A stretch of 50,793 bases of DNA from Nitrospirota bacterium (GTDB lineage Bacteria; Nitrospirota; Thermodesulfovibrionia; Thermodesulfovibrionales; UBA6898): positions 1 through 50,793 of the forward strand of contig JACRLQ010000039.1 in NCBI GenBank assembly GCA_016215155.1, in the 5' to 3' direction. The notes under the pieces are model-generated. The model worked only from the letters and a program-made list of their open reading frames with translations, had not been told where the DNA came from and searched no databases. Within the stretch, counting starts at the first letter, position 1. Each line of letters opens with the position of its first letter. This document shows positions 1 to 11,186 of this stretch, piece by piece. Both the position numbers and the translations under genes were made by a program.

Positions 1-221
1 ATTTCATCGGCCTTAACGCTGTCAACACTGCGTCTATCACTGATCCGGTCCAGAAGATTCTTGTTCTTTATTGCTCTTGCCAGAAGCGGTATTGCATATT
101 CGTACATGTCGGCAAAAATACTGTTGTTCTCATTTGTCCAAACAGTAGTGAATCCGGCTCGCGCAAACCCCGTATCAAGGAATACGCCACCCGTGAAAAA
201 AGACAATACTGGAATAAGCAT
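1..221 (-). CDS. DNA cytosine-C5 methyltransferase, N-terminal part (DrmMII-like)
   Basis: This is the first 73 codons of a minus-strand gene that runs off the left edge of the window. The predicted protein begins MLIPVLSFFTGGVFLDTGFA, which matches motif I of cytosine-C5 DNA methylases (the F-x-G-G SAM-binding loop). The segment that follows, ending TVWTNENN, fits the strand carrying the acidic or polar SAM-contact residue. The ATG lies directly after the drmB stop (TAA then ATG, no gap) and has AGGAGAT about 11 nt upstream, so translation is probably coupled to drmB. In class 2 DISARM the methylase DrmMII marks host DNA so that the DrmAB machinery spares it, and the same role is inferred here. 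The catalytic PCQ motif and target-recognition domain lie outside the window, so an intact gene cannot be confirmed. Confidence 0.8.
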   Translation of the reverse strand, partial: MLIPVLSFFTGGVFLDTGFARAGFTTVWTNENNSIFADMYEYAIPLLARAIKNKNLLDRISDRRSVDSVKADE

Positions 222-2126
222 TTATTTTAAATCTCCTAACCTAAAGTAACCGATATCAGAATTATCAAGGCTTCCAACGACAAGTGCTCTGTCAAGAAAT
301 CTGTTGAATTCTTCACACGCGGTTTCAGGGACCAAGCCACAATTATGGCAGGCTGCCAAATTACAATTATCTGGCCCCTGGCCTCCACGGCTACCCATTT
401 CCATGCAGACAGGATCAGCCGAACACCAAGTTGCCTTTTCCAGTGCCTTTAAAACCATCGGCTCGAAATAACCCTGTTTCCCCATTCGTACAAGACCGCC
501 CATTGTGCCTTCAGCGTCACCGGCAGCTGTGTATATAAGAATTCCGGCCATGGGTGCGCCTGCAGTTTCAGATACATATAATCGTTCACGCAGGGACGCT
601 GAACTATAACCACATTCAAAGGTTAACTGGTTCATTAGCAGATGGGCAAGAGTATGAAGAAAAATAAAACGTGGACCTATTTGCCTTACCCGAAGCCCTC
701 TCGCTTGCTGATTCCGCTGATAGCGATCTACTAAAAAACGAACCCTATCTATCACAGAAATCCGTTTTTCCCATATCTGCAATCTTTCTTCGTTTAATTC
801 GAGGAAAATGCCTTCGCCATAAACAATATACGCAGGGAGCCAGGAATTATTACCTTGAGGAACACTTCGCCATAACATAGCCTTTTTTTGTTCAAGGGTT
901 TGATCACTTTCAGGGAATGCACGGCTAAAGCCTGCAAGGACTCTGGTCTCCCTTAGCTTATCAATAAGCATTAATTTTGAAAAGAAGCCAGAGATATTAT
1001 TCTCATAGGTGTCAAGAGAAGCTGCCTTGATCAGTAATTGGCTATCATTTCGAGGAGATCTCAAAACATTAAACTCCGCACGTCGAAGAGCTATCTGCTG
1101 ATCCTCATCAGGGGATGACTGATCTGTCGAATCTTCTTTCTTGCCAGTGAGAATTATGTTGATGCCCGCGGCAATCTCGGCATCAGCATATGGGCGCAGC
1201 AACTGAGCATATAAGTTTCTCAGATCTTCAGGTTTTACTTCTCTGCCAGTCCCAGCCAAAATAGTTAGTAATGTAGAAAGAGGCGGTCCTTCCATAAGAG
1301 CAACAAGTTCAGACGGAGCAGCACTCGTTCCTCTGGGTAAATATATTGCGCTTCTTATATCGGCAAAATAAACATTTGAAGCACTTCTTAATGAGCCTCT
1401 TAAAGGGCGGGGGCATAGCTCATTCTCCTGAGTGCTTAACCAAGGCCGGCTTCCACGGCACTGGAAAACCGTCCCGCTGCTGTCCAGATTCTTGCTCAAA
1501 AACGTTTCACTTCGATCTGATGTGGCTTCAGTAATACTGGATAGCGTGCGTTCAGCACCGCAATCACATTTGACCTTCTGTGCCGCAAGGGAAGCTCCTC
1601 CAGTTGAAATTAAGCGTAGCGGGAGCATGCAAGCAGAAGCTGCAGATCGATGTGCCCATTCTCGCCAAGGGAAATCCTGGATATGCCCTTGATCGCACAT
1701 CGCAATAAAGGGAACTTGCACTAAGTAATTGCTCTTGCCTTTCTCCTGGCATTCAGGACATTTGATCCGGCCGCGGGCTGAAAGTGGCAGCTCGTCGAGC
1801 CTGTAACATTGCCGGCAGAAATGCCATTGAGGAAAACGCAAAAATGGTATTGTGAGACTACTGTTTGGCATATCCTGACCTCTGCGCTTTTCCCTGTAAT
1901 CTGGCGGCAAGCAGAAATGGTGACATCTCAGTAGTCGTTGAAGTCTCCATTCGTCAAAAACAAATTCCTGGGTATCTAAAGTCCTACTGTCAGTTTCGCC
2001 GCTTTCACGCTCGAACCAGTGGTCCAGCCCTCCGGAAATAACTGATGTGCCGTCGCGAACAACAACCATAGCACCAACACCAAATGGCGCAATGAGCTGA
2101 GACCTTCTGAGAGGTCCTTTAGGCAT
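222..2126 (-). CDS. drmB: DrmB-like DUF1998 (MrfA zinc-binding) protein of a DISARM-type system
   Basis: The protein starts MPKGPLRRSQLIAPFGVGAM, the characteristic opening of DrmB proteins, and has about 634 residues. Cysteine pairs CRQC (about 104-107) and CPEC (about 123-126) and a CDQGH segment (about 144-148) look like zinc ligands. The C-terminal third is a DUF1998 domain with HTLAHLLMNQL, an IYTAAGDAEGTMGG segment and a terminal cluster C-x-x-A-C-H-N-C. DrmB partners the DrmA helicase in DISARM. An in-frame ATG 18 nt further upstream (2144) is possible, but GGAGG sits 8 nt before the ATG at 2126 and conserved homology begins there, so I chose 2126. The start overlaps the drmA stop by 8 nt and the stop abuts the methyltransferase ATG. 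Function in this variant locus is inferred from the family. Confidence 0.88.
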   Translation of the reverse strand: MPKGPLRRSQLIAPFGVGAMVVVRDGTSVISGGLDHWFERESGETDSRTLDTQEFVFDEWRLQRLLRCHHFCLPPDYREKRRGQDMPNSSLTIPFLRFPQWHFCRQCYRLDELPLSARGRIKCPECQEKGKSNYLVQVPFIAMCDQGHIQDFPWREWAHRSAASACMLPLRLISTGGASLAAQKVKCDCGAERTLSSITEATSDRSETFLSKNLDSSGTVFQCRGSRPWLSTQENELCPRPLRGSLRSASNVYFADIRSAIYLPRGTSAAPSELVALMEGPPLSTLLTILAGTGREVKPEDLRNLYAQLLRPYADAEIAAGINIILTGKKEDSTDQSSPDEDQQIALRRAEFNVLRSPRNDSQLLIKAASLDTYENNISGFFSKLMLIDKLRETRVLAGFSRAFPESDQTLEQKKAMLWRSVPQGNNSWLPAYIVYGEGIFLELNEERLQIWEKRISVIDRVRFLVDRYQRNQQARGLRVRQIGPRFIFLHTLAHLLMNQLTFECGYSSASLRERLYVSETAGAPMAGILIYTAAGDAEGTMGGLVRMGKQGYFEPMVLKALEKATWCSADPVCMEMGSRGGQGPDNCNLAACHNCGLVPETACEEFNRFLDRALVVGSLDNSDIGYFRLGDLK

Positions 2127-5100
2127 TCTCTTCGCCTCCTTCATTCAAATACAGAGTTGTGATCTCCACTTGACACTCTGCATCAACGTTGCGTAAAGAC
2201 CGCTGTGTTGGCCACGAGATTCTGGCCCATTCACTGCTCACATAAGAACCAGCCTCGCGCAATAAGGGTGGATCTTCGTCCCAGCGGTTCCCATCCCAGC
2301 GCCGCCTTTGCCATCGTTGCCATTCATTTATTCGTGCATCAAAAACACGTTCGAAATTTGAAACCTCTTCTGGATCGATTGACTGAATCCTTGGAAGTAA
2401 GAGATTTTTTATCTGATTTAACAAATCTGCTGGATAAGGGTATGGACTTTCGGCTACCGACTTGGTGCCTGCCTGCCGAGCATATGCAACAATGACTGAA
2501 TGAAGCGCCCTATCAAGCACCGGCGGCGAAAATGGCGTGACACTTGTTGGTTCAACCTGTGCATAAAGCCGTTCGTGGTAACTCCGGAACTTCTCAAAGT
2601 GAGAGCGGTCACGGGGCTTGGATGCACTGTATATTGTGACCACAAGACCAGGGCGTTCCTTCCAGCGACGTCCTACTCTTCCAGTAACCTGGATATATTG
2701 CGAAGTAGTCTTAGGTTGTCCAACAATAGAGATCAAAGAGAGACGGTCAATATCAATACCAACTTCAATGATATTTGAAGCTAAACACACATCGACAGGC
2801 TTGCCCTCGGTACCGGTGCAGCTTCTTTCGAGGGCTACGATGGCCTCAGGAATTTCTTCACTCTTTATACGACCAGTCAGCTCCAGGATATCGCCTAACC
2901 CCAATTTTCGAATGCGTGAGTAATCCAGACCGGTGCGGTTCCTCAAAACCTTGAGATAATCAGGAATGTCCGACTGGAATAAAGAGAGCGTCGTTCCCAA
3001 TTCTCTAAAACTATTAAAGAAGATCAATAGGGTCCACCAAGGGTCTCTCTCTGCTGGAGTAAATGGGACCGCTGCCTGAATGAGGGATGTAAAAGTTCTC
3101 ACCTGTGCTGTTTGCAAGGAGCCAAGGCCCGGCGCATTCACACCGATATAGATTCTGCCTGGATAGTTTGTTCCATCTGGCCGTCTTGCATACCGGGCGA
3201 AAAAAGAATCTTCAACATCAAGGCCTGGCGGCGGGAAAAGTGCAGCATCATTGCGTCCGTATAATGCCTTAATTTGCTCGGTATATCGTCTTATAGTAGC
3301 AGTCGAAGCCACTATTTTAGGAGCAATTGCCTGTCCATTGCGGCGATCAGTACACAACTCTTCAATAACTGCTTCATAAAGACCTACCATAGAGCCAAGG
3401 GGGCCGGAGATCAAATGCAGTTCATCCTGTATAATCAGACCTGGCGGACTGCAAATTCGGTTGCCGTCAACCCCAATGCCAAATAGTGCTCTTGCCTCCG
3501 GCCGCCATGAAAGCATTGCAAACTTATCAACAGTTCCAATTACAAGCGAAGGCGGATTCTCATAAATATCTTGGTCTATAACGTAAACAGGCAAACCATC
3601 TTTGAACTCGCACCTGTTGTCGGGGCACTTGAATATTACAGTTGAACCGCGTTGCTCATATCCTATAAGTCTTGGTGCATAACGTGGCGGTGCCCCCTGA
3701 TATTTGATTGGACCCATTTGCGCACCACACCAAGGACACTTATTTACGATAAACATGTTGTCTGTGAACTGATCGCCCCTTAGTAATGCCCTTAATACTT
3801 CTAACGCCTTCTGGTGCGTATTAGGTGTACTGGCTCCTCCAAGCCATATGCCAATAGAGAACTCTTGTTCGCCGAGGTCTTTTGAGTTATTACGGCGCAA
3901 ATACTCCATGACACATAATAAGCTCGAAGCCCTCTGAAACTGCTGAGTTGTTAGCAATCGCAAAGTGTATCTCATAATAGCGTGACACCCATGATCCAAG
4001 GGATCATTAAGTCGTCTCATAAACATCGCAAAGCTTGCAAGCCCGAGATACGCTTCAGTTTTCCCGCCACCTGTAGGAAACCAAATCAACTCAACTGTGG
4101 AACGGTCAGGGACATTGCCATCAGCGGCAGATTTTAGAGTCATCAAAAGAAATGCAATCTGAAAGGCTCTCCACTTGCCTATGAAGCCAGCAGCATTCGA
4201 AGGGTCAGGATCAGTATACTTTTCCGGAAAAATTAGCCTGCGGGCCACCCGGTCATATTTTACAGATCGTGAATTTCGCCGGCTGCAGATCTGCTGTAGC
4301 AACATGGCATGATTCATAAGTTTGAAGGCTTTAAGTGCCATTTGATTTTCAGATAAATAGGTTAATCCGTCCCTCATTCTTTTTGCACATCTGGTGCATT
4401 CGTCGATATGACGGGTGGCTGCTGGAATATAGAATTGATCCAGTCCCTGAATCTCCTTTTTTCTCTCATTAATCCACTGCGCATAAAAATCAATCACTTC
4501 CATTAATGAGGCTAACCCGTCCTCGCCCGGAATGATGCCGGCTAAAGCTGCCATTGATACTTCAATTGGGCTGCCATCATTACGGGTAATATCAGGGGTT
4601 ATGCTCGGAGTTTCAAAAGCCGGAAGACATTCCGCTCTTACCGAATGTGCATTTATATTGTCAGTTCTTTGCCAATCGGCAGCACAGCCATGACCGACAG
4701 CATATGTGTCTGCTTCCCGGTAGAGAAGCAAGATCGACTGGTCTTCATTATCCAAACTGTTTTTTTTAGCTGACGGATACGGCAGTATATGAGGCAGGCC
4801 ATCGGGGGCAACGATATTAACTTGAAAATAAGTTTGAAACAAGCAATATAGATCAACAGGAATTTTAGCTTGTGTTCTATTGACGAGGCATATTGTGAGA
4901 AGCCGTGTCCGCGTGACTTCAGTAGGTCTTGAAAATACTTCGATGCGCAAGTCCAAGTCACCAAGATTAGCACTTTCGAAACTGCCAGAAGATACTTTGC
5001 CGTTGGTTGCACAAATATCCTCTCCACTAAATGTCGCTTTCAGTGTTACCGAGCTTCGTAGCCACCAATCTCTGTCTTTACCGTCCACCCGCACCTTATT

Positions 5101-5652
5101 CTTGGTATAGCGCCCATTTACTGAACTCTCTTGAAATTCATTGAAGGAGGGTACTTCAACTATAAGAGAACAATGAATTGGAAACTCCGCAAGAAAACTT
5201 ATGCCTATACTGCTGGGTCTGTAAGTGTTGGCCGATGTAAGATCAAGGTCATAAGGATCTGTATCACCACCCGTGGCATCAGCCCTTTTAATAATATTTT
5301 CGATATCTTTTGCCCCTTCAGCTGTCAGTAGGTTGTTAGGGGATGTGTCTTCATCTGGTTCTCCTGCTTCTACAATACTGCTGGCAGCATCAGTAAGCGG
5401 AACAGTTTCTTCATTTTCATCCGGTGTGCCAAATGGGTATAAAACACCTATGCCATATCTCTTGAGTGGACGATCCCGTTGCAAGATTTCCTCGCCGGTG
5501 CCTTTTTGCTTCCATGGCATACGGAATTTTGTTAATTCTTCAAAAATGATTACAGTCGAGCAGTCGAGTTCCTCTCCCTGAGGAGACGGGCCTACAAGTT
5601 CCTCCCTCAGTGCTTTCATAATTATCTTTCTATTGCCCACGTGATCAGCCAT
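2119..5652 (-). CDS. drmA: DrmA-like SF2 helicase of a DISARM-type system
   Basis: This 1177-residue protein has a roughly 500-residue N-terminal region followed by a split SF2 helicase core. Walker A is PTGGGKT (526-532), motif II is DELH (743-746), motif III is STAT (783-786), and motifs V/VI lie in ASNIIEVGIDID and QVTGRVGRRW (about 958-997). Between the first motifs is a four-cysteine candidate zinc site (CPWC at 639-642, C676, C681), seen in this helicase family and in DUF1998-linked helicases. Length and layout match DrmA, whose complex with DrmB binds DNA and is thought to be activated by free 5-prime overhangs of invading phage DNA. It overlaps the NERD-helicase gene upstream by 8 nt and drmB downstream by 8 nt, so the three are probably co-translated. 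The match is strong; assignment to a particular DISARM subtype is less certain. Confidence 0.9.
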   Translation of the reverse strand: MADHVGNRKIIMKALREELVGPSPQGEELDCSTVIIFEELTKFRMPWKQKGTGEEILQRDRPLKRYGIGVLYPFGTPDENEETVPLTDAASSIVEAGEPDEDTSPNNLLTAEGAKDIENIIKRADATGGDTDPYDLDLTSANTYRPSSIGISFLAEFPIHCSLIVEVPSFNEFQESSVNGRYTKNKVRVDGKDRDWWLRSSVTLKATFSGEDICATNGKVSSGSFESANLGDLDLRIEVFSRPTEVTRTRLLTICLVNRTQAKIPVDLYCLFQTYFQVNIVAPDGLPHILPYPSAKKNSLDNEDQSILLLYREADTYAVGHGCAADWQRTDNINAHSVRAECLPAFETPSITPDITRNDGSPIEVSMAALAGIIPGEDGLASLMEVIDFYAQWINERKKEIQGLDQFYIPAATRHIDECTRCAKRMRDGLTYLSENQMALKAFKLMNHAMLLQQICSRRNSRSVKYDRVARRLIFPEKYTDPDPSNAAGFIGKWRAFQIAFLLMTLKSAADGNVPDRSTVELIWFPTGGGKTEAYLGLASFAMFMRRLNDPLDHGCHAIMRYTLRLLTTQQFQRASSLLCVMEYLRRNNSKDLGEQEFSIGIWLGGASTPNTHQKALEVLRALLRGDQFTDNMFIVNKCPWCGAQMGPIKYQGAPPRYAPRLIGYEQRGSTVIFKCPDNRCEFKDGLPVYVIDQDIYENPPSLVIGTVDKFAMLSWRPEARALFGIGVDGNRICSPPGLIIQDELHLISGPLGSMVGLYEAVIEELCTDRRNGQAIAPKIVASTATIRRYTEQIKALYGRNDAALFPPPGLDVEDSFFARYARRPDGTNYPGRIYIGVNAPGLGSLQTAQVRTFTSLIQAAVPFTPAERDPWWTLLIFFNSFRELGTTLSLFQSDIPDYLKVLRNRTGLDYSRIRKLGLGDILELTGRIKSEEIPEAIVALERSCTGTEGKPVDVCLASNIIEVGIDIDRLSLISIVGQPKTTSQYIQVTGRVGRRWKERPGLVVTIYSASKPRDRSHFEKFRSYHERLYAQVEPTSVTPFSPPVLDRALHSVIVAYARQAGTKSVAESPYPYPADLLNQIKNLLLPRIQSIDPEEVSNFERVFDARINEWQRWQRRRWDGNRWDEDPPLLREAGSYVSSEWARISWPTQRSLRNVDAECQVEITTLYLNEGGEENA

Positions 5653-7393
5653 GCCGCGCCCCTTTATCTTCCAAAAGAATGCTCAATATTTCGTTCCTAA
5701 CAGAATCATGAGCTAAAATTATTAGTTTCTGCAATGCCCTGGTTACGGCAATATAAAATAGTGCCTTGCTTGTTGGACCAGAAACCTCGTCAACGTCAGT
5801 GACTACAACAATCGGCGCTTCTAATCCTTTAAAGGCATGAATAGAGCAATACCCAATATGCCCTTGCACTGACAATTCAAAAGGCTTTAATCTGTCAGCC
5901 CAGGGGCTGTCCTGAACAGAATGGGCTGCGCATGCCGTATCTGCCTTTGTAGAGAGAATTACGATATTACCCCCTGTCAATCCTTTCTTGTAAAAGCTAT
6001 CTAAGGTTTTTATAAGCAATGTAGTTTGATCTTTGCTACTGTCATAATAGAGCAATTCCGGCTCGATTCCATTGTCTGGGCGGAGTATCTTGCTGTAGTC
6101 AGGATTCAGATTACCAAGAATATGAACCAAACTCGCTATTCGTGGCGTATTTCTGCAATTCATGCGAAGCGCATAGATTGACGCTGACCCTGACCGGTTC
6201 TTAATGAATACGTCCAATGGGATATTGGCTGCTCCAAATATAGCCTGTTTCTCGAAGTCACCAAAAAATTGCCATTGTCCTGACGCGAGACCGCCTTCAA
6301 GGCTTAAGTCCAGGAAATCCAAATATTCATTTCGCAGAATGTCCTGTGCTTCATCAACAATTATTTCGTCAAAGCAATTTTGGACACCCTCCATCAGAAT
6401 TTTCTCGGTCGCAAGGGTAGGAAGTTTATTTGTCCAAAATGTTTCCTGACATTTTTCTGTTTCATTTGGAACAATTCCAGCTGTTGACAACATTTGACTG
6501 TGCAATGTTCTCGTAATAACCTGTGGCTTAAGGCTCTCCATTTGATCTTCAAGCCACTTGCCTAAGTGACGATTAAAACATACAAACAGCACACGATTAC
6601 CTTTCAGAGCGCTCCGGCGAGCTGCCTCAATCGCAAGCATGGTCTTCCCTGTTCCGGCAGGCCCGGAGAAAGCGACCCGCGCATTTGCCTCCATAGCGTC
6701 AAGCGCTGCAATTTGTTCCTGAGTATAATACTTAAGCTCATTTGACAGTTTAAGAGCTTGCTGTTTGGGACTCTCATAGAATTCAAAGCTCGGTCGCAAC
6801 AAGTTGGTCATTATGTTGCACTGTTCTTCAGTTGGACTGACTGATTGAGACTGAAACCATTTCACATCGAGACGTTCCTTAAGAAAGGCTCTCGCTTTTT
6901 CCAAAATGCCCAGCAATAATATACCTAAGGGTCTGGCACGGAAAGCCCGTGTGTCAATTGCCTGCCATGGATGCCATTCATCTGATTTAACAGAGAACTC
7001 CACAAAAGGAAATATTACTGCCGACCAAAAAACTATATGTGAAAAATCAGGTCTTGCTACAATGACTCTCTTGCGAATGCTATACATCGCTTCTGATGCT
7101 TGTCTAAAGGGTCCTCTCCTATCGGGCCGGTTGTCTAAACCATAGAACCATTGCCCATTCTCCCTGCGCAGGCTTGAGCAGGCTTTAACTTCAATGCAAA
7201 GCACTCCCTTCGCTGGAATAATTATTACGAAATCAGCTTCGCCGGAAATCTGCCGCATATGCTCAGCAATATCAAGGGAATGTAATACTATCCAGTCACT
7301 GGTTTCTGGATCATTCTTTAACCTCCGGAAAATTTCTTGTTCTCCTGGGCTTGGGCAAGAGGGCGATATATAAGGTGGTATCATCCTTGCCAT
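5645..7393 (-). CDS. NERD-domain nuclease fused to an SF1 (UvrD/Rep-like) helicase
   Basis: This 582-residue fusion carries an N-terminal NERD (nuclease-related) domain at about residues 10-130, with GEADFVI (51-57) and IEVK (67-70) supplying the acidic and lysine residues of a restriction-endonuclease-like fold. An SF1 helicase follows: GPAGTGKT (244-251), DEAQD (347-351), a GDF-x-KQ segment (378-383), CR (413-414), HAFKGLE (519-525) and AVTRA (549-553). NERD-helicases of this type occur in many phage-defence neighbourhoods. Here the gene lies within the DISARM-like operon, overlapping drmA by 8 nt. AAAGGA stands 6 nt before the chosen ATG. It could supply the nuclease activity that DrmC (absent here) gives canonical DISARM; that substitution is an inference. 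The gap of 88 nt to the upstream gene is the largest in the operon. Confidence 0.85.
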   Translation of the reverse strand: MARMIPPYISPSCPSPGEQEIFRRLKNDPETSDWIVLHSLDIAEHMRQISGEADFVIIIPAKGVLCIEVKACSSLRRENGQWFYGLDNRPDRRGPFRQASEAMYSIRKRVIVARPDFSHIVFWSAVIFPFVEFSVKSDEWHPWQAIDTRAFRARPLGILLLGILEKARAFLKERLDVKWFQSQSVSPTEEQCNIMTNLLRPSFEFYESPKQQALKLSNELKYYTQEQIAALDAMEANARVAFSGPAGTGKTMLAIEAARRSALKGNRVLFVCFNRHLGKWLEDQMESLKPQVITRTLHSQMLSTAGIVPNETEKCQETFWTNKLPTLATEKILMEGVQNCFDEIIVDEAQDILRNEYLDFLDLSLEGGLASGQWQFFGDFEKQAIFGAANIPLDVFIKNRSGSASIYALRMNCRNTPRIASLVHILGNLNPDYSKILRPDNGIEPELLYYDSSKDQTTLLIKTLDSFYKKGLTGGNIVILSTKADTACAAHSVQDSPWADRLKPFELSVQGHIGYCSIHAFKGLEAPIVVVTDVDEVSGPTSKALFYIAVTRALQKLIILAHDSVRNEILSILLEDKGARHG

Positions 7394-7481
7394 AGCGCAT
7401 CCTTTATGTCGAATGGATGACCGAGCAGTGAAACAGAGACTTTCATTATCTCACTGGAAACGTTGCGGACCCTGAATGCAG

Positions 7482-8744
7482 TTAAGCTACCACTGTCAAC
7501 AAGTCGTTATAGTCCCACGTTTTGATGCTCTTATATGACATCCAGTTCCTAACATTTATTTCATTTGCCTTTAAAGAGCCGAGATCGATTAGCTTGAGAC
7601 TGACGTCAAGAAGGCTGGCTGATTTTGTTGCCACCTCACGCAATCGTGTTTTCCAGAGCTTTTGCATCATCCTGGCCCCTTCAGCCTCTTTACCCATAAT
7701 CCAATCTGCAATGTTAATAATATAATCGCCACCTCCACTTGTTCGTAACAGAACATAATTGTTAGGTGATATATTATTTGCAGATATTCTCTTCACCCTG
7801 TGCTGTTCCTCTTCATCAAGATCTATTATCAAGACTGAAGAGTTTTCTTCGGTATCCAGAAATACTGCTTTTTCGCCTTCAAGAAGAAAAAGCCGTGCAT
7901 TAACTTCTTCTTGGCCGGCTTCACGTGAAAGATGACCTGTAACTTTTCTCGAAATGCTCCCCCAGTCGATTTTAGGGATCAAATCCTCAGATGATAAATA
8001 TTCTTCTTCAGTTACATATATAGTTTCTGGCGTAGACTTCTCAGGTTCTGCCTTATAGTCTTTTGAACCAATGAAAACCGGCTCAACTCGCAAGGTTTCC
8101 TTAATCCAGCCATACCGGACCAAATTAAGCTTGAATGCCCTTGGTGCGCTATAAACATAAGACGGGAACCAGCGTGAGGGACCGATTACAAAAAGGTTTT
8201 TATAACAATTCCCGCGTCTGACCTGGACAGGCGCCAATAATGGAATTCTATGCAGCACATGGTGAGATTTCAATACCTCTTCTGCAGATGGGATAAGATA
8301 TGACTCCTTTAGTAATATGGCTGTGTCGGAACTTTTGTCAGGTTGAACTTTTGAATCCAAGAAATCCAGTAACGGGCTTTCATTGAGTTCAAGCAATGAA
8401 AATATCTGTTCGAGTATTTCTTGCGCATACCCGTCAAACTGTGGAAAAAGGTTTTTGCAGCGCAATGCACTATGTTTCAATACTCTAATACTGCTGAGCG
8501 TTTGTGATGGAGGGCTATTCAGAAACAGCGGAGCAGCACATAATTCAAAACGATATCTTTTAAGAGGCGACATAAAAGCCTTCCAGTAGGGATCATCAGC
8601 ATTTTCGCCTAATATATGTTCAAATTTTTTCAGCGAAAGACAAAATTTGCCAAGTGCTTTGTGGGCAACTGTATGTTTAATTATTTCGAAATTTTTGCTG
8701 CATTCATATATATCAGTGGCAACTGTCAAATCACATTGCTTCAT
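7482..8744 (-). CDS. Unrecognised 420-residue protein of the DISARM-like operon
   Basis: I do not recognise a named family. The protein has no signal peptide, membrane segment, Walker motif or phospholipase-D HxK motif. The N-terminal half (1-150) looks helical, with a long hydrophobic/charged pattern. The C-terminal half has a beta-rich stretch (RLFLLEGEKAVFLD, then SVLIIDLDEEEQHRV) followed by VLLRTSGGGDYI and a helical tail with Q-K-L-W-K. The upstream gene ends inside its start codon (4-nt overlap, ATGA), so the two are translationally coupled. With that 312-residue neighbour it occupies the place of drmE in class 2 DISARM, and the two together approach the size of a single large DrmE. 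A split DrmE-like protein is one possibility, but I cannot confirm homology from sequence alone. Confidence 0.7.
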   Translation of the reverse strand: MKQCDLTVATDIYECSKNFEIIKHTVAHKALGKFCLSLKKFEHILGENADDPYWKAFMSPLKRYRFELCAAPLFLNSPPSQTLSSIRVLKHSALRCKNLFPQFDGYAQEILEQIFSLLELNESPLLDFLDSKVQPDKSSDTAILLKESYLIPSAEEVLKSHHVLHRIPLLAPVQVRRGNCYKNLFVIGPSRWFPSYVYSAPRAFKLNLVRYGWIKETLRVEPVFIGSKDYKAEPEKSTPETIYVTEEEYLSSEDLIPKIDWGSISRKVTGHLSREAGQEEVNARLFLLEGEKAVFLDTEENSSVLIIDLDEEEQHRVKRISANNISPNNYVLLRTSGGGDYIINIADWIMGKEAEGARMMQKLWKTRLREVATKSASLLDVSLKLIDLGSLKANEINVRNWMSYKSIKTWDYNDLLTVVA

Positions 8745-9679
8745 TCTGCCCCTTCCTGGAAAGAAAGAATATCGATCCCTTGGGGCAATTCAAGAGTATT
8801 TTCAATTGGGGTGTCACCTATACGCCTTTCAACGTATTCATTATTTAACTGGTCGACTGCATCTTGAAAACAAGATTCTGTTTTATCCAGCAGTACGAGC
8901 CAATTTGACTGGAGCCAGTAATCACGCCATTTCAAAAAACTGATGGCTCCGTCAAAAATGACCATATAGGGTCTATCTTGATTAGCCGTTAAAGATGTGT
9001 GTTCTCTATCTGCCGGCATTATATTTGACCGGTATGCACTTCCTTCAGCCATGAACTTTCTTGCCCTGAGTACGTCTTGAAATGTTCCCTCGACGTGTCC
9101 TGATCCAAATGATATTTCTGTATCTTTAATTTCGTGCCGTAATGTGTTTACACAGCCGATAATTACGCATTCAAGACGTGATCTCATTGCGAACTCATAT
9201 GAGTTATTTGTACCAAGCATAGTTTTCAGAAATTCTTTATTGTGAACAATGCGGTGCTCTCCAACTGTTTTTTCAGGCGAACCATTACTTGAACCCCCGA
9301 CTATTTGAAGCCTTTTTCTTGCTTCCTGAAGAGGGAGGCCGCATTTGCATCTTTGCCTTCCCCTTTTCCAAATAAAATTTATAGATGGACCATCTTCCTT
9401 CTGTTCTATTCCAATAAATTCACCATGGTAACAGTCCTCGCCTGAGCGATAAATCACTGGCCGTCCAGACTCGATGGTCTTAAGATTGTCGAGGTATTCA
9501 GTATCATCAAGACTGTCATAAGGGATTTTAGCGCGCTCGATAATATATCCTGTTGCTATCAGCGCTGCAGCATACGCCCTAATTGGAACAGCAAGGCCAG
9601 TAATAAAGCGATAGTGGGGATCTTGTGGAGCTGCTATGGCAGAGCCGAGGGAGATAAAGGAGATAGCCCACGAAGGCAT
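8741..9679 (-). CDS. Unrecognised 312-residue protein, first visible gene of the DISARM-like operon
   Basis: I do not recognise the family. Visible features are a CKCG pair near the middle that might bind metal, and a C-terminal segment MVIFDGAISFLKWRDYW then NWLVLLDKTE, with a hydrophobic-strand-plus-acid pattern reminiscent of a Walker B strand but without any Walker A. No signal peptide or membrane helix is evident. An in-frame TAG lies 6 nt upstream of the ATG, so the frame is closed there. The ribosome-binding site is poor (only TAGG), and the artificial adapter begins 22 nt upstream at 9701, so promoter and leader are lost and the true start is uncertain. It overlaps the next gene by 4 nt. 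Operon position argues for a role in the same defence system. Confidence 0.65.
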   Translation of the reverse strand: MPSWAISFISLGSAIAAPQDPHYRFITGLAVPIRAYAAALIATGYIIERAKIPYDSLDDTEYLDNLKTIESGRPVIYRSGEDCYHGEFIGIEQKEDGPSINFIWKRGRQRCKCGLPLQEARKRLQIVGGSSNGSPEKTVGEHRIVHNKEFLKTMLGTNNSYEFAMRSRLECVIIGCVNTLRHEIKDTEISFGSGHVEGTFQDVLRARKFMAEGSAYRSNIMPADREHTSLTANQDRPYMVIFDGAISFLKWRDYWLQSNWLVLLDKTESCFQDAVDQLNNEYVERRIGDTPIENTLELPQGIDILSFQEGAE

Positions 9680-9700
9680 TGCAACCTATCTACCGCCATT

Positions 9701-9734
9701 AGATCGGAAGAGCACACGTGTAGGGAAAGAGTGT
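9701..9734. other. Illumina TruSeq adapter sequence: chimeric assembly junction
   Basis: The 34 bases begin with AGATCGGAAGAGCACACGT, the start of the standard TruSeq index-adapter arm, and continue as GTGTAGGGAAAGAGTGT, the reverse complement of the TruSeq universal arm. The two arms meet at the self-complementary octamer ACACGTGT, where an assembler could step from one adapter strand to the other. This is synthetic library sequence, not biology. The contig was probably joined here through untrimmed adapter, so linkage between the defence operon on the left and the chromosomal genes on the right is unsupported. Confidence 0.95.
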
Positions 9735-9830
9735 TATCTTGTTTTATCACCGCGCTCCCTCCATTATTCACATGCCTCCCACACTATAGAGAACTAACTC
9801 CAGGTCTTTAGACTGAAGCCTGAAGCCTAA

Positions 9831-10208
9831 TTATAGACCCAGACGATCTTTTATCGCCGCTAGAAAAGTTTTACCTTCTTCGATTTTTATGGATGCAACA
9901 GGCTCGATAATCTCTTCCTGTATATCATAATCGGCAATTTCTCTTATCTTTCTTGCATCGATAAGCATCCGGTGATATTTCGGATCTATCCTGCCCGCCT
10001 TTGCAAAATAGTATCCAAGCGCGGATTCAACGGCAGAGTGTTTTGTAACGTCAATATCTTCGGATTTCAACAAGGCTTGAGCGGCATAGTACATCGAGTA
10101 ATAAACTTTACTTGCAGCATCGGAAGGATACCCGTCTCGCAAGAGATCTTTTGCCACTTCAAGTGCATGCTCGGCCTTTTCAATAAGCTTTTTGACTTCC
10201 TCTGTCAT
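9831..10208 (-). CDS. HEPN-domain protein, probable toxin of an HEPN/MNT pair
   Basis: This 125-residue helical protein matches the HEPN family: an N-terminal helix with A-E-H-A-L-E, the segment KVYYSMYYAAQALL (about 39-52), and the RKIREIADYD motif near residue 90 that marks the usual position of the conserved HEPN arginine. HEPN proteins are often RNases or nucleotide-binding partners of small nucleotidyltransferases. Here the gene follows an MNT-family nucleotidyltransferase with a 4-nt ATGA overlap, the standard HEPN/MNT toxin-antitoxin arrangement. The canonical RNase signature R-x4-6-H is not evident because the histidine position is not histidine. It could therefore be a non-catalytic HEPN of the DUF86-unlike class, so toxicity is uncertain. 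Confidence 0.85.
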   Translation of the reverse strand: MTEEVKKLIEKAEHALEVAKDLLRDGYPSDAASKVYYSMYYAAQALLKSEDIDVTKHSAVESALGYYFAKAGRIDPKYHRMLIDARKIREIADYDIQEEIIEPVASIKIEEGKTFLAAIKDRLGL

Positions 10209-10534
10209 ACCGTAATACCTTCTTTTTCGACATGCCGGTAGAAAGAATATCCCTTATTCAGGGCTGTCAAAAATTGTGACTCTGCAAGGACCTTAAGCGA
10301 GATTACAGGTTTAAAATCATTGTCCCACATGACCTGATACGCAATGTCTTCGAGGCATTTTTCTATCTCGGAGTTTTTTTCATCGACCAGAGCCAGGAGG
10401 TCGAGATCAGAATCGCCTGTCTCTTCTCCTCTTGCCCTTGAGCCGAACAAAACCAGTTTCTTCAGATGTTTTAAGACATCCCCGGTCAGTCTGCTTTTTA
10501 AATCAATAACGAGTTGCCTGTCTTTTTCGTTCAT
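10205..10534 (-). CDS. MNT-family minimal nucleotidyltransferase, probable antitoxin partner of the HEPN protein
   Basis: The protein carries the polymerase-beta nucleotidyltransferase signature LFGSRARGEETGDSDLDLL: GS, then a D-x-D pair that would coordinate Mg2+ and NTP. In HEPN/MNT modules this enzyme can neutralise the HEPN toxin, in studied cases by AMPylating it. I placed the start at the ATG beginning MNEKDRQ (110-residue region), because homologues usually start about 25-30 residues before the GSRARG motif. A start at 10600 would add 22 residues and has a better Shine-Dalgarno (GAAGGGG), so it remains possible. The stop overlaps the HEPN start by 4 nt. Confidence 0.82.
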   Translation of the reverse strand: MNEKDRQLVIDLKSRLTGDVLKHLKKLVLFGSRARGEETGDSDLDLLALVDEKNSEIEKCLEDIAYQVMWDNDFKPVISLKVLAESQFLTALNKGYSFYRHVEKEGITV

Positions 10535-10745
10535 ATATTTTCTTCTTACCAGTTTATCACAGTGGACAGGTTTTCTTGCATACCGCTTTCCAATCAGCAT
10601 GCATCCCCTTCAAAGCAACAAAGTGCTTAATAATAATATGTTATTTCTGTTAAAGGCAAGAACTATTTGCAGAACTGGTTGGGGCTATTGGGGTCGATAG
10701 GCGGTTCCGTAAGAGTGACGGCAGCGACAAAAAATGGCAAGGGGG

Positions 10746-11186
10746 TTACCGGCCATATAGACGAAAATCCAGAAATTCACGTATTCTCACAAAATCCTTT
10801 TCATTTTTTGTAAGCACAAACGCCCCAATTCTCCTGGCGGAGCAGGCGATAAGAATGTCATTTTGGAGCCGCGAGAGATATGTTGAGTCATAGCCGTATT
10901 TTTTTCTGCACTTCGCAATGATGCCGCCCGTTTGACGCCAGTCTTTATCATTGGGGACTATCAGTCTTCCGACATCCTGAAAGGTTTGATACAACTTGTC
11001 GAGAAGCTTGATTGATTGACTGTCATGCGCTCCGGCGAAAAGTTCAGAAATGACAACCGAACTCATATATAGAAGCGGACTGACAAAGTCCTCGGGAAAA
11101 TGCGGATGCATAATACCATCTCTGAGGAAAGGTATATAAACGGAGGTATCAAGGACAGCTTTAATCTGATAATCTGCCGAAGACAT
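10746..11186 (-). CDS. PIN-domain ribonuclease, VapC-like toxin
   Basis: This 146-residue protein has the PIN-domain order of acidic residues: LDTSVYIP (first Asp at about residue 12), VVISELFAGA (Glu about 48), then NDILIACSA and VLTKNEKDF near the end. PIN toxins of VapBC modules cleave RNA, commonly tRNA or rRNA, using Mg2+ bound by these acids. The start codon lies inside the preceding antitoxin gene (26-nt overlap), and the pair sits behind a palindromic operator-like site. All four expected acidic positions appear present, so the protein looks intact. The RNA target cannot be inferred. Confidence 0.87.
   Translation of the reverse strand: MSSADYQIKAVLDTSVYIPFLRDGIMHPHFPEDFVSPLLYMSSVVISELFAGAHDSQSIKLLDKLYQTFQDVGRLIVPNDKDWRQTGGIIAKCRKKYGYDSTYLSRLQNDILIACSARRIGAFVLTKNEKDFVRIREFLDFRLYGR

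Follow-up and report, generated by a model that had tools for sequence, protein, structure and literature searches.

The operon at the left end of a Nitrospirota contig raises the question of whether it is an ordinary class 2 DISARM system or a DISARM variant with a nuclease-helicase of its own. The contig (GenBank assembly GCA_016215155.1, JACRLQ010000039.1; C57 in our numbering) forms the whole stretch of DNA analysed here, which we call the window (50,793 bp), and belongs to a genome of 3.43 Mb in 101 contigs. Its minus strand encodes, in this order, U312, U420, a NERD nuclease-superfamily 1 (SF1) helicase fusion, DrmA and DrmB, followed by the beginning of a C5-cytosine methylase. The original prediction for this DNA had placed a NERD-SF1 helicase before drmA in a DISARM-like operon that lacks drmC, and we found this arrangement to be conserved in one well-supported DrmA clade rather than to be an oddity of a single genome. 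We conclude, with a probability of about 0.72, that the locus is a damaged representative of a DISARM variant related to class 2 but lacking DrmC, with a core of split DrmE, the NERD-SF1 nuclease-helicase, DrmA and DrmB, and usually with a C5 methylase.

Gene content and distribution of the operon

The predicted six-gene order on the minus strand was confirmed, with open reading frames (ORFs) for DrmB at 222-2144, DrmA at 2119-5652, the NERD helicase at 5645-7393, U420 at 7482-8744 and U312 at 8741-9679. The overlap between the DrmA and DrmB genes is 26 nt, which does not agree with the claim that all overlaps were of 4-8 nt. DrmA (1177 aa), a superfamily 2 (SF2) helicase of the YprA family, matched the PADLOC DrmA model (1.3e-210), NCBIfam NF038325 (865 bits, below the equivalog cut-off of 950) and the solved relative 7s9v DrmA (E 4e-201). 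Its partner DrmB (640 aa), a DUF1998/MZB protein (PF09369) encoded by a separate, adjoining gene, matched the PADLOC DrmB model (5e-75) and NF038324 (437 bits, above the cut-off of 240), so the check with PADLOC models that had been proposed for these two proteins bore out their assignment. The nearest relative found was L057, a Nitrospirae metagenome-assembled genome, with 79% identity in DrmA.

A DrmA scan of one genome per species (84,980 species) yielded 517 relatives, and the best 80 of these went into the locus analysis. The search with U420 contributed a complete six-gene operon, L010, from the same phylum but another family, and two Nostoc plasmid records, and the search with the NERD helicase contributed one Rhodococcus plasmid; no U420 match was found in viral contigs. 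Among all DrmA loci examined, the U312-U420 pair and the NERD helicase stood directly before DrmA in 53, and in 7 further split loci, mostly with over-long ORF calls, the helicase was near DrmA rather than directly before it, which answers the question of how often a NERD helicase sits beside drmA elsewhere. The split pair occurred without the NERD helicase in 20 loci, and a full-length DrmE with the helicase in 6. The median gaps along the operon were -4, -13, -4 and -8 nt. Since the five-gene order recurs in 53-60 loci, a chance arrangement is far from plausible.

In a DrmA tree made by a quick method, 91 loci formed one clade (SH-aLRT support 99), at the base of which stand the full-length DrmE loci, and every split-DrmE locus fell into a sub-clade of 87 rows (SH-aLRT 100); L166, which has a full-length DrmE and the NERD helicase, fell outside the 91-locus clade. 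The hosts of the clade belong to about 15 phyla, and those named in the tree for the split-plus-NERD arrangement are Nitrospirota, Chloroflexota, Acidobacteriota, Bacillota, Deinococcota, Planctomycetota, Thermodesulfobacteriota, Rhodothermota, Actinomycetota, Myxococcota, Armatimonadota, Kiritimatiellota, Pseudomonadota, Zixiibacteriota and Dormiibacterota. The distance matrices of the five proteins were correlated with r of 0.92-0.97, compared with at most 0.23 in 999 permutations. Convincing U420 was present in 4 of 396 Actinomycetota species, two of which had been found before. The variant is rare, yet spread over very many lineages.

U312 and U420 as probable pieces of DrmE

The two genes ahead of the NERD helicase had been listed as unknowns. 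Judged by its family and profile matches, U420 makes up the C-terminal 60% of DrmE, and U312 is probably the N-terminal part, which means that DrmE is not missing from the locus but probably split into two genes. No family model matched the window copies of U420 or U312 themselves, which share 62% and 54% identity with U420 and U312 of L057, respectively. The U420 of L057, however, matched the NCBIfam model DrmE_fam (NF038316) at positions 601-810 (3.5e-12), and the copies from Calothrix and Sporotomaculum passed the cut-off of this model. Over the whole U420 family, 27 of 67 proteins matched DrmE_fam and 40 of 67 matched Pfam DrmE_C (threshold E 0.01), with NF038316 E-values down to 7e-28. 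In agreement with this, the U420 profile aligned to full-length DrmE at about residues 300-800 (E to 2e-39).

The place of U312 follows from operons in which DrmE is intact. In L096, L155, L166, L167 and L168, a single DrmE gene of 797-870 aa is followed by the NERD helicase, DrmA and DrmB. Because this full-length DrmE replaces both U312 and U420, U312 stands at the position of the first ~300 residues of DrmE. Profile comparison of U312 with the DrmE N-terminus using hhalign gave moderate support, as the match, colinear over the whole length, had a P of 0.02 with true DrmE and of 7e-4 after sequences had been added. The comparison was null when the alignment included the large proteins encoded upstream of DrmA in L102, L108, L110 and L118; these candidates for DrmE, which proved to be type III restriction-like proteins, DrmD_b or proteins without assignment, were dropped from the DrmE alignment.

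One of the operons with an intact DrmE gene lies on a viral contig (L096:2237-15136), where a methylase, an MzaE-like AIPR protein, full-length DrmE, the NERD helicase, DrmA and DrmB are encoded in a row, so that MZA and DISARM parts are mixed in a phage-like setting.

The predicted structures point to a helicase fold for both pieces. The AlphaFold2 model of U312 (pLDDT 91) had Mfd as its best Foldseek match (E 3e-4), the N-terminal positions ~60-126 of DrmE_fam weakly matched long, Mfd-sized proteins, and the DrmE of L097 matched the Mfd model. Alignment of the U312 model with VIA-align revealed RecA domains of SF2 helicases and a Tudor/CarD-like barrel at about residues 76-142, with Z up to 8.5. 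Since this best Z lies within reach of unrelated models, we assign U312 to an SF2/RecA-like fold but to no family. Residues ~10-230 of the L057 U420 model matched Hef, XPF, MDA5 and RIG-I with Z of 10-11, corresponding to a RecA2 domain with a helical insertion. No Walker A motif was present in 77 U312 and 11 DrmE proteins. The window U312 would thus be the DrmE N-terminal half, a Walker-less RecA-like domain with a small inserted barrel, and the window U420 the truncated C-terminal half, a RecA2/Hel2i-like domain with part of DrmE_C. On these models, DrmE resembles an SF2 helicase that is dead as an ATPase and has been divided at an inter-domain boundary. DrmE, whose function is so far unknown, thereby gains a predicted fold and a natural two-gene form, whose domains can be tested separately.

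Absence of DrmC from the operon

If drmC and drmMII lay just off the contig and the NERD helicase were an unrelated passenger, the locus would be an ordinary class 2 DISARM. Class 2 systems include DrmE, DrmA, DrmB and a C5 methylase, the contig edge falls inside the methylase, and the class 2 label has been given to archaeal proviruses that carry DrmE, DrmA, DrmB and a type II methylase but lack DrmC (PMC11705971). We searched for DrmC with a profile built from three annotated DrmC proteins, which is not blind, since it also detects a DrmC as divergent as that of L152 (22 bits). With this profile, DrmC was absent from the operons of the DrmA clade, and the split-DrmE clade gave a single match, which lies several kb outside the operon of L031. 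In the window, DrmC is absent between DrmB and the methylase fragment, where the view ends at the contig edge, and the relatives have no DrmC there. What follows the methylase is HNH and Vsr in L057, the closest relative, and a glycosylase in L010. The original prediction had named drmE homology in the two unassigned genes and drmC beyond the left edge as the finds that would make this a class 2 system; the first was made, whereas the order methylase-HNH-Vsr or methylase-glycosylase in the relatives speaks against the second. Moreover, the NERD helicase has been inherited together with DrmA (r 0.94), which is at odds with a passenger gene. The ordinary class 2 explanation is thus largely refuted by the relatives, and we regard it as very improbable.

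The NERD-SF1 helicase as candidate effector

The fusion protein of the window (582 aa) matched the NERD domain PF08378 (48.9 bits) and PF13538 (UvrD_C_2), and has an intact PD-(D/E)xK set (E18, D54, E68 and K70) as well as intact Walker A and B motifs. The PD-(D/E)xK residues were kept in 62-63 of 63 relatives, and the Walker A motif GxGKT, DExQD and the later SF1 motifs in all 65 helicases. Judged by these residues, the protein should be active as both nuclease and helicase, and it is likely to be the effector of the variant. The earlier suggestion of NERD as a replacement for DrmC agrees with the way in which the two exclude each other, as none of the 8 examined DrmA loci with DrmC had a NERD helicase before DrmA. 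It fits less well with the Bacilli and cyanobacterial sub-clades, whose operons contain neither, so the replacement remains an inference.

Alternatively, the NERD helicase could be a helper, with DrmAB alone blocking phage replication and host nucleases being recruited. The absence of the NERD gene from the Bacilli and cyanobacterial operons would agree with this, as would the finding that DrmC is dispensable in tested DISARM, for which host phospholipase D (PLD) nucleases were proposed (PMC9142583); a PLD-like protein is encoded elsewhere in the genome studied here. The catalytic residues of NERD are, however, invariant wherever the gene is kept, which would be unexpected for a bystander, and we consider the helper role unlikely.

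Two further genes were noted in this context. A Nostoc gene annotated as pentapeptide repeat (L007:19952-22153) scored 236 bits on the NERD-helicase model and lies near a split-DrmE locus without an operonic NERD gene. Contig C19 (L001) of the window's own genome encodes a second NERD-SF1 helicase (562 aa), whose gene diverges from one for an SNF2-type helicase.

With the NERD helicase as effector, a mechanism can be proposed. The C5 methylase would mark host DNA as self. DrmA-DrmB would load on phage DNA that is unmethylated and has a single-stranded 5' tail, and then translocate, by analogy with Serratia DISARM, in which DrmAB is autoinhibited, binds 5' single-stranded-tailed DNA and requires ATP hydrolysis (PMC9142583). 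The two DrmE pieces, a predicted ATPase-dead Hef/XPF/RIG-I-like module, may bind branched or end-containing phage DNA or scaffold the complex. The NERD helicase would unwind and cut the phage DNA exposed by DrmAB, in the role guessed for DrmC. In the DISARM systems tested so far DrmC was dispensable, many operons have no copy of it, and the nuclease step "has remained a mystery" (PMC9142583). A large DrmC-less clade, mostly with an intact nuclease-helicase beside DrmA, offers a concrete, mutable nuclease candidate.

One may go further and regard these operons as a separate DISARM class of ~15 phyla, in which the NERD-SF1 nuclease-helicase serves as the system's own effector. DrmE would then be a dead Hef/XPF/RIG-I-like helicase, split at the RecA1/RecA2 boundary into two subunits that sense DNA structure. 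We put this forward tentatively, at somewhat less than even odds.

The methylase and its accompanying genes

The 5-methylcytosine (5mC) methylase of the original prediction is indeed a C5 methylase, present only as a 73-codon 5' fragment at 1-221 on the minus strand that ends at the contig edge, with 46% identity to the L010 methylase and 57% to the 376-aa PF00145 methylase of L057. A search with PF00145 and the L057 methylase did not reveal the remainder elsewhere in the assembly. The C5 methylase on contig C56 was considered as the missing part and proved to be an unrelated protein; at that locus (L004), a 621-aa C5 methylase is followed by a GHKL/MORC-like ATPase, likely forming another defence locus. 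Among the relatives, a C5 methylase was present within the flank examined in 48 of 57, and both its side and its strand differ between loci. The methylases of L010 and L057 scored 418-429 bits on the PADLOC model DruM2 and 92-113 bits on DrmMII.

Vsr and HhH-GPD glycosylase suit the repair of deaminated 5mC. Vsr accompanies the methylase in L057, in L155 and near L009, and an HhH-GPD glycosylase accompanies it in L010 and others. Because such genes accompany the methylase, real methylation of the host DNA is suggested. The genes beside the C5 methylase (HhH-GPD glycosylase, HNH or Vsr at L010:591-1346, L057:12672-13655 and L155:19254-19712) resemble type II restriction-modification loci with 5mC repair.

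Damage in the window copy

Alignment of the DNA with L057 showed that the window U420 lacks ~181 nt near its 3' end compared with the 513-aa U420 of L057, and that the frame is shifted. The final 40 U420 codons, equivalent to L057 residues 474-513, persist out of frame at 7384-7503 on the minus strand (tblastn 72% over 40 aa). The 88-nt gap between U420 and the NERD helicase, noted earlier as the one wider gap of the operon, is therefore present as the scar of this deletion and not as native spacing. With 420 aa, the window U420 is the shortest unsplit U420 of the set (median 521).

A second lesion lies at the right border of the operon. Positions 9701-9734 (34 nt, plus strand) read AGATCGGAAGAGCACACGTGTAGGGAAAGAGTGT, in which the first 19 nt are those of the Illumina TruSeq read-1 adapter and the last 18 nt those of the read-2 adapter, making this hybrid an assembly artefact. 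The sequence AGATCGGAAGAGC occurs only once, here, in the 3.43-Mb genome. Homology to the L057 U312 stops at the hybrid, from which it follows that the ATG of U312 at 9679 is internal and that the N-terminus is missing. The join of the operon to the right flank, from 9735 onward, is unproven because of the hybrid, and the contig is possibly a chimera here. Relatives of the family were tried as a test of this join: conserved DNA starts with fhs at about 11,500, so the comparison identified only fhs onward as conserved chromosome.

The window locus might accordingly be a decaying or chimeric pseudo-operon with no present function, in a family that is functional. The frame-breaking deletion in U420, the adapter in the 5' end of U312 and the cut methylase fit such a state; DrmA, DrmB and the NERD helicase, on the other hand, are full length with intact motifs, and both lesions could be explained as assembly faults. 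We find this explanation doubtful, although it deserves more weight than the helper role discussed above.

Returning to the damaged copy of a DrmC-less variant as the preferred reading, several points weigh against it. The profile support for U312 as DrmE N-terminus is just P 7e-4, and U312 has no family match. The methylase varies in position and strand among the relatives, and among the PADLOC models DruM2 rather than DrmMII comes closest to it. The NERD helicase is not strictly essential, because two sub-clades, the Bacilli branch and the cyanobacterial branch, have no copy in the operon. Finally, two genes of the window copy are truncated, and this copy may lack activity or result from misassembly.

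Comparison with known systems

The variant shares with DISARM class 2 (DrmE, DrmA, DrmB, DrmC, DrmMII) the DrmA and DrmB proteins, a DrmE-family protein ahead of them and a C5-cytosine methylase nearby, but differs in its two-gene DrmE, the lack of DrmC, the NERD-SF1 helicase between DrmE and DrmA and a methylase closer to DruM2/type II models than to DrmMII. As the PADLOC definition of DISARM type II needs DrmC and a DrmE hit, and both DrmC and DrmE as one protein are absent, the loci would escape a call as this type. With class 1 (DrmD, DrmMI, DrmA, DrmB, DrmC) only the DrmA-DrmB core is common; the DrmD SNF2 helicase, DrmMI and DrmC are lacking, and DrmA has 1177 residues compared with 1325 in the solved Serratia DrmA. 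The PADLOC models for DrmD and DrmMI had no match among the genes tested at 222-11186, a view bounded by the contig edge.

TALON (Bell et al. 2025, PMC12458937) likewise combines a YprA-family helicase with a NERD nuclease; it has, however, an ARMADA-like helicase with TPR-CSD and TBP genes, whereas the window has a DISARM-type DrmA, a separate DrmB and DrmE pieces. Family models detected no TBP or TPR-CSD match among the operon genes. Nhi, AbiO, C3a187 and the DRT-associated NERD-Hel resemble the proposed effector in joining a nuclease domain to an SF1 helicase, the mechanism proposed here, but stand alone or with a reverse transcriptase, and the Nhi model scored the window helicase at only 31 bits. 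The DrmAB loci L100, L101, L107 and L117 also contain DrmA, DrmB and a NERD-SF1 helicase, yet their helicase lies downstream of drmB in the place of DrmC, they have no DrmE and often a second UvrD-like gene upstream, and they stand apart in the DrmA tree. We found no named description of the variant in the literature: the passages of Bell et al. 2025 considered here mention "many uncharacterized DISARM-like classes" (PMC12458937) and do not describe this one, and an earlier mention in the founding DISARM paper is possible.

Further observations

L091 joins L100, L101, L107 and L117 in a further DrmAB class, in which the NERD helicase follows drmB in the place of DrmC; this class, too, looks undescribed. 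To the right of the adapter hybrid, the window carries a HEPN/MNT pair with an MntA-like nucleotidyltransferase and a PIN-domain VapC-like gene (9831-10600 and 10746-11186) beside fhs, and these are not found at that place in the family relatives.

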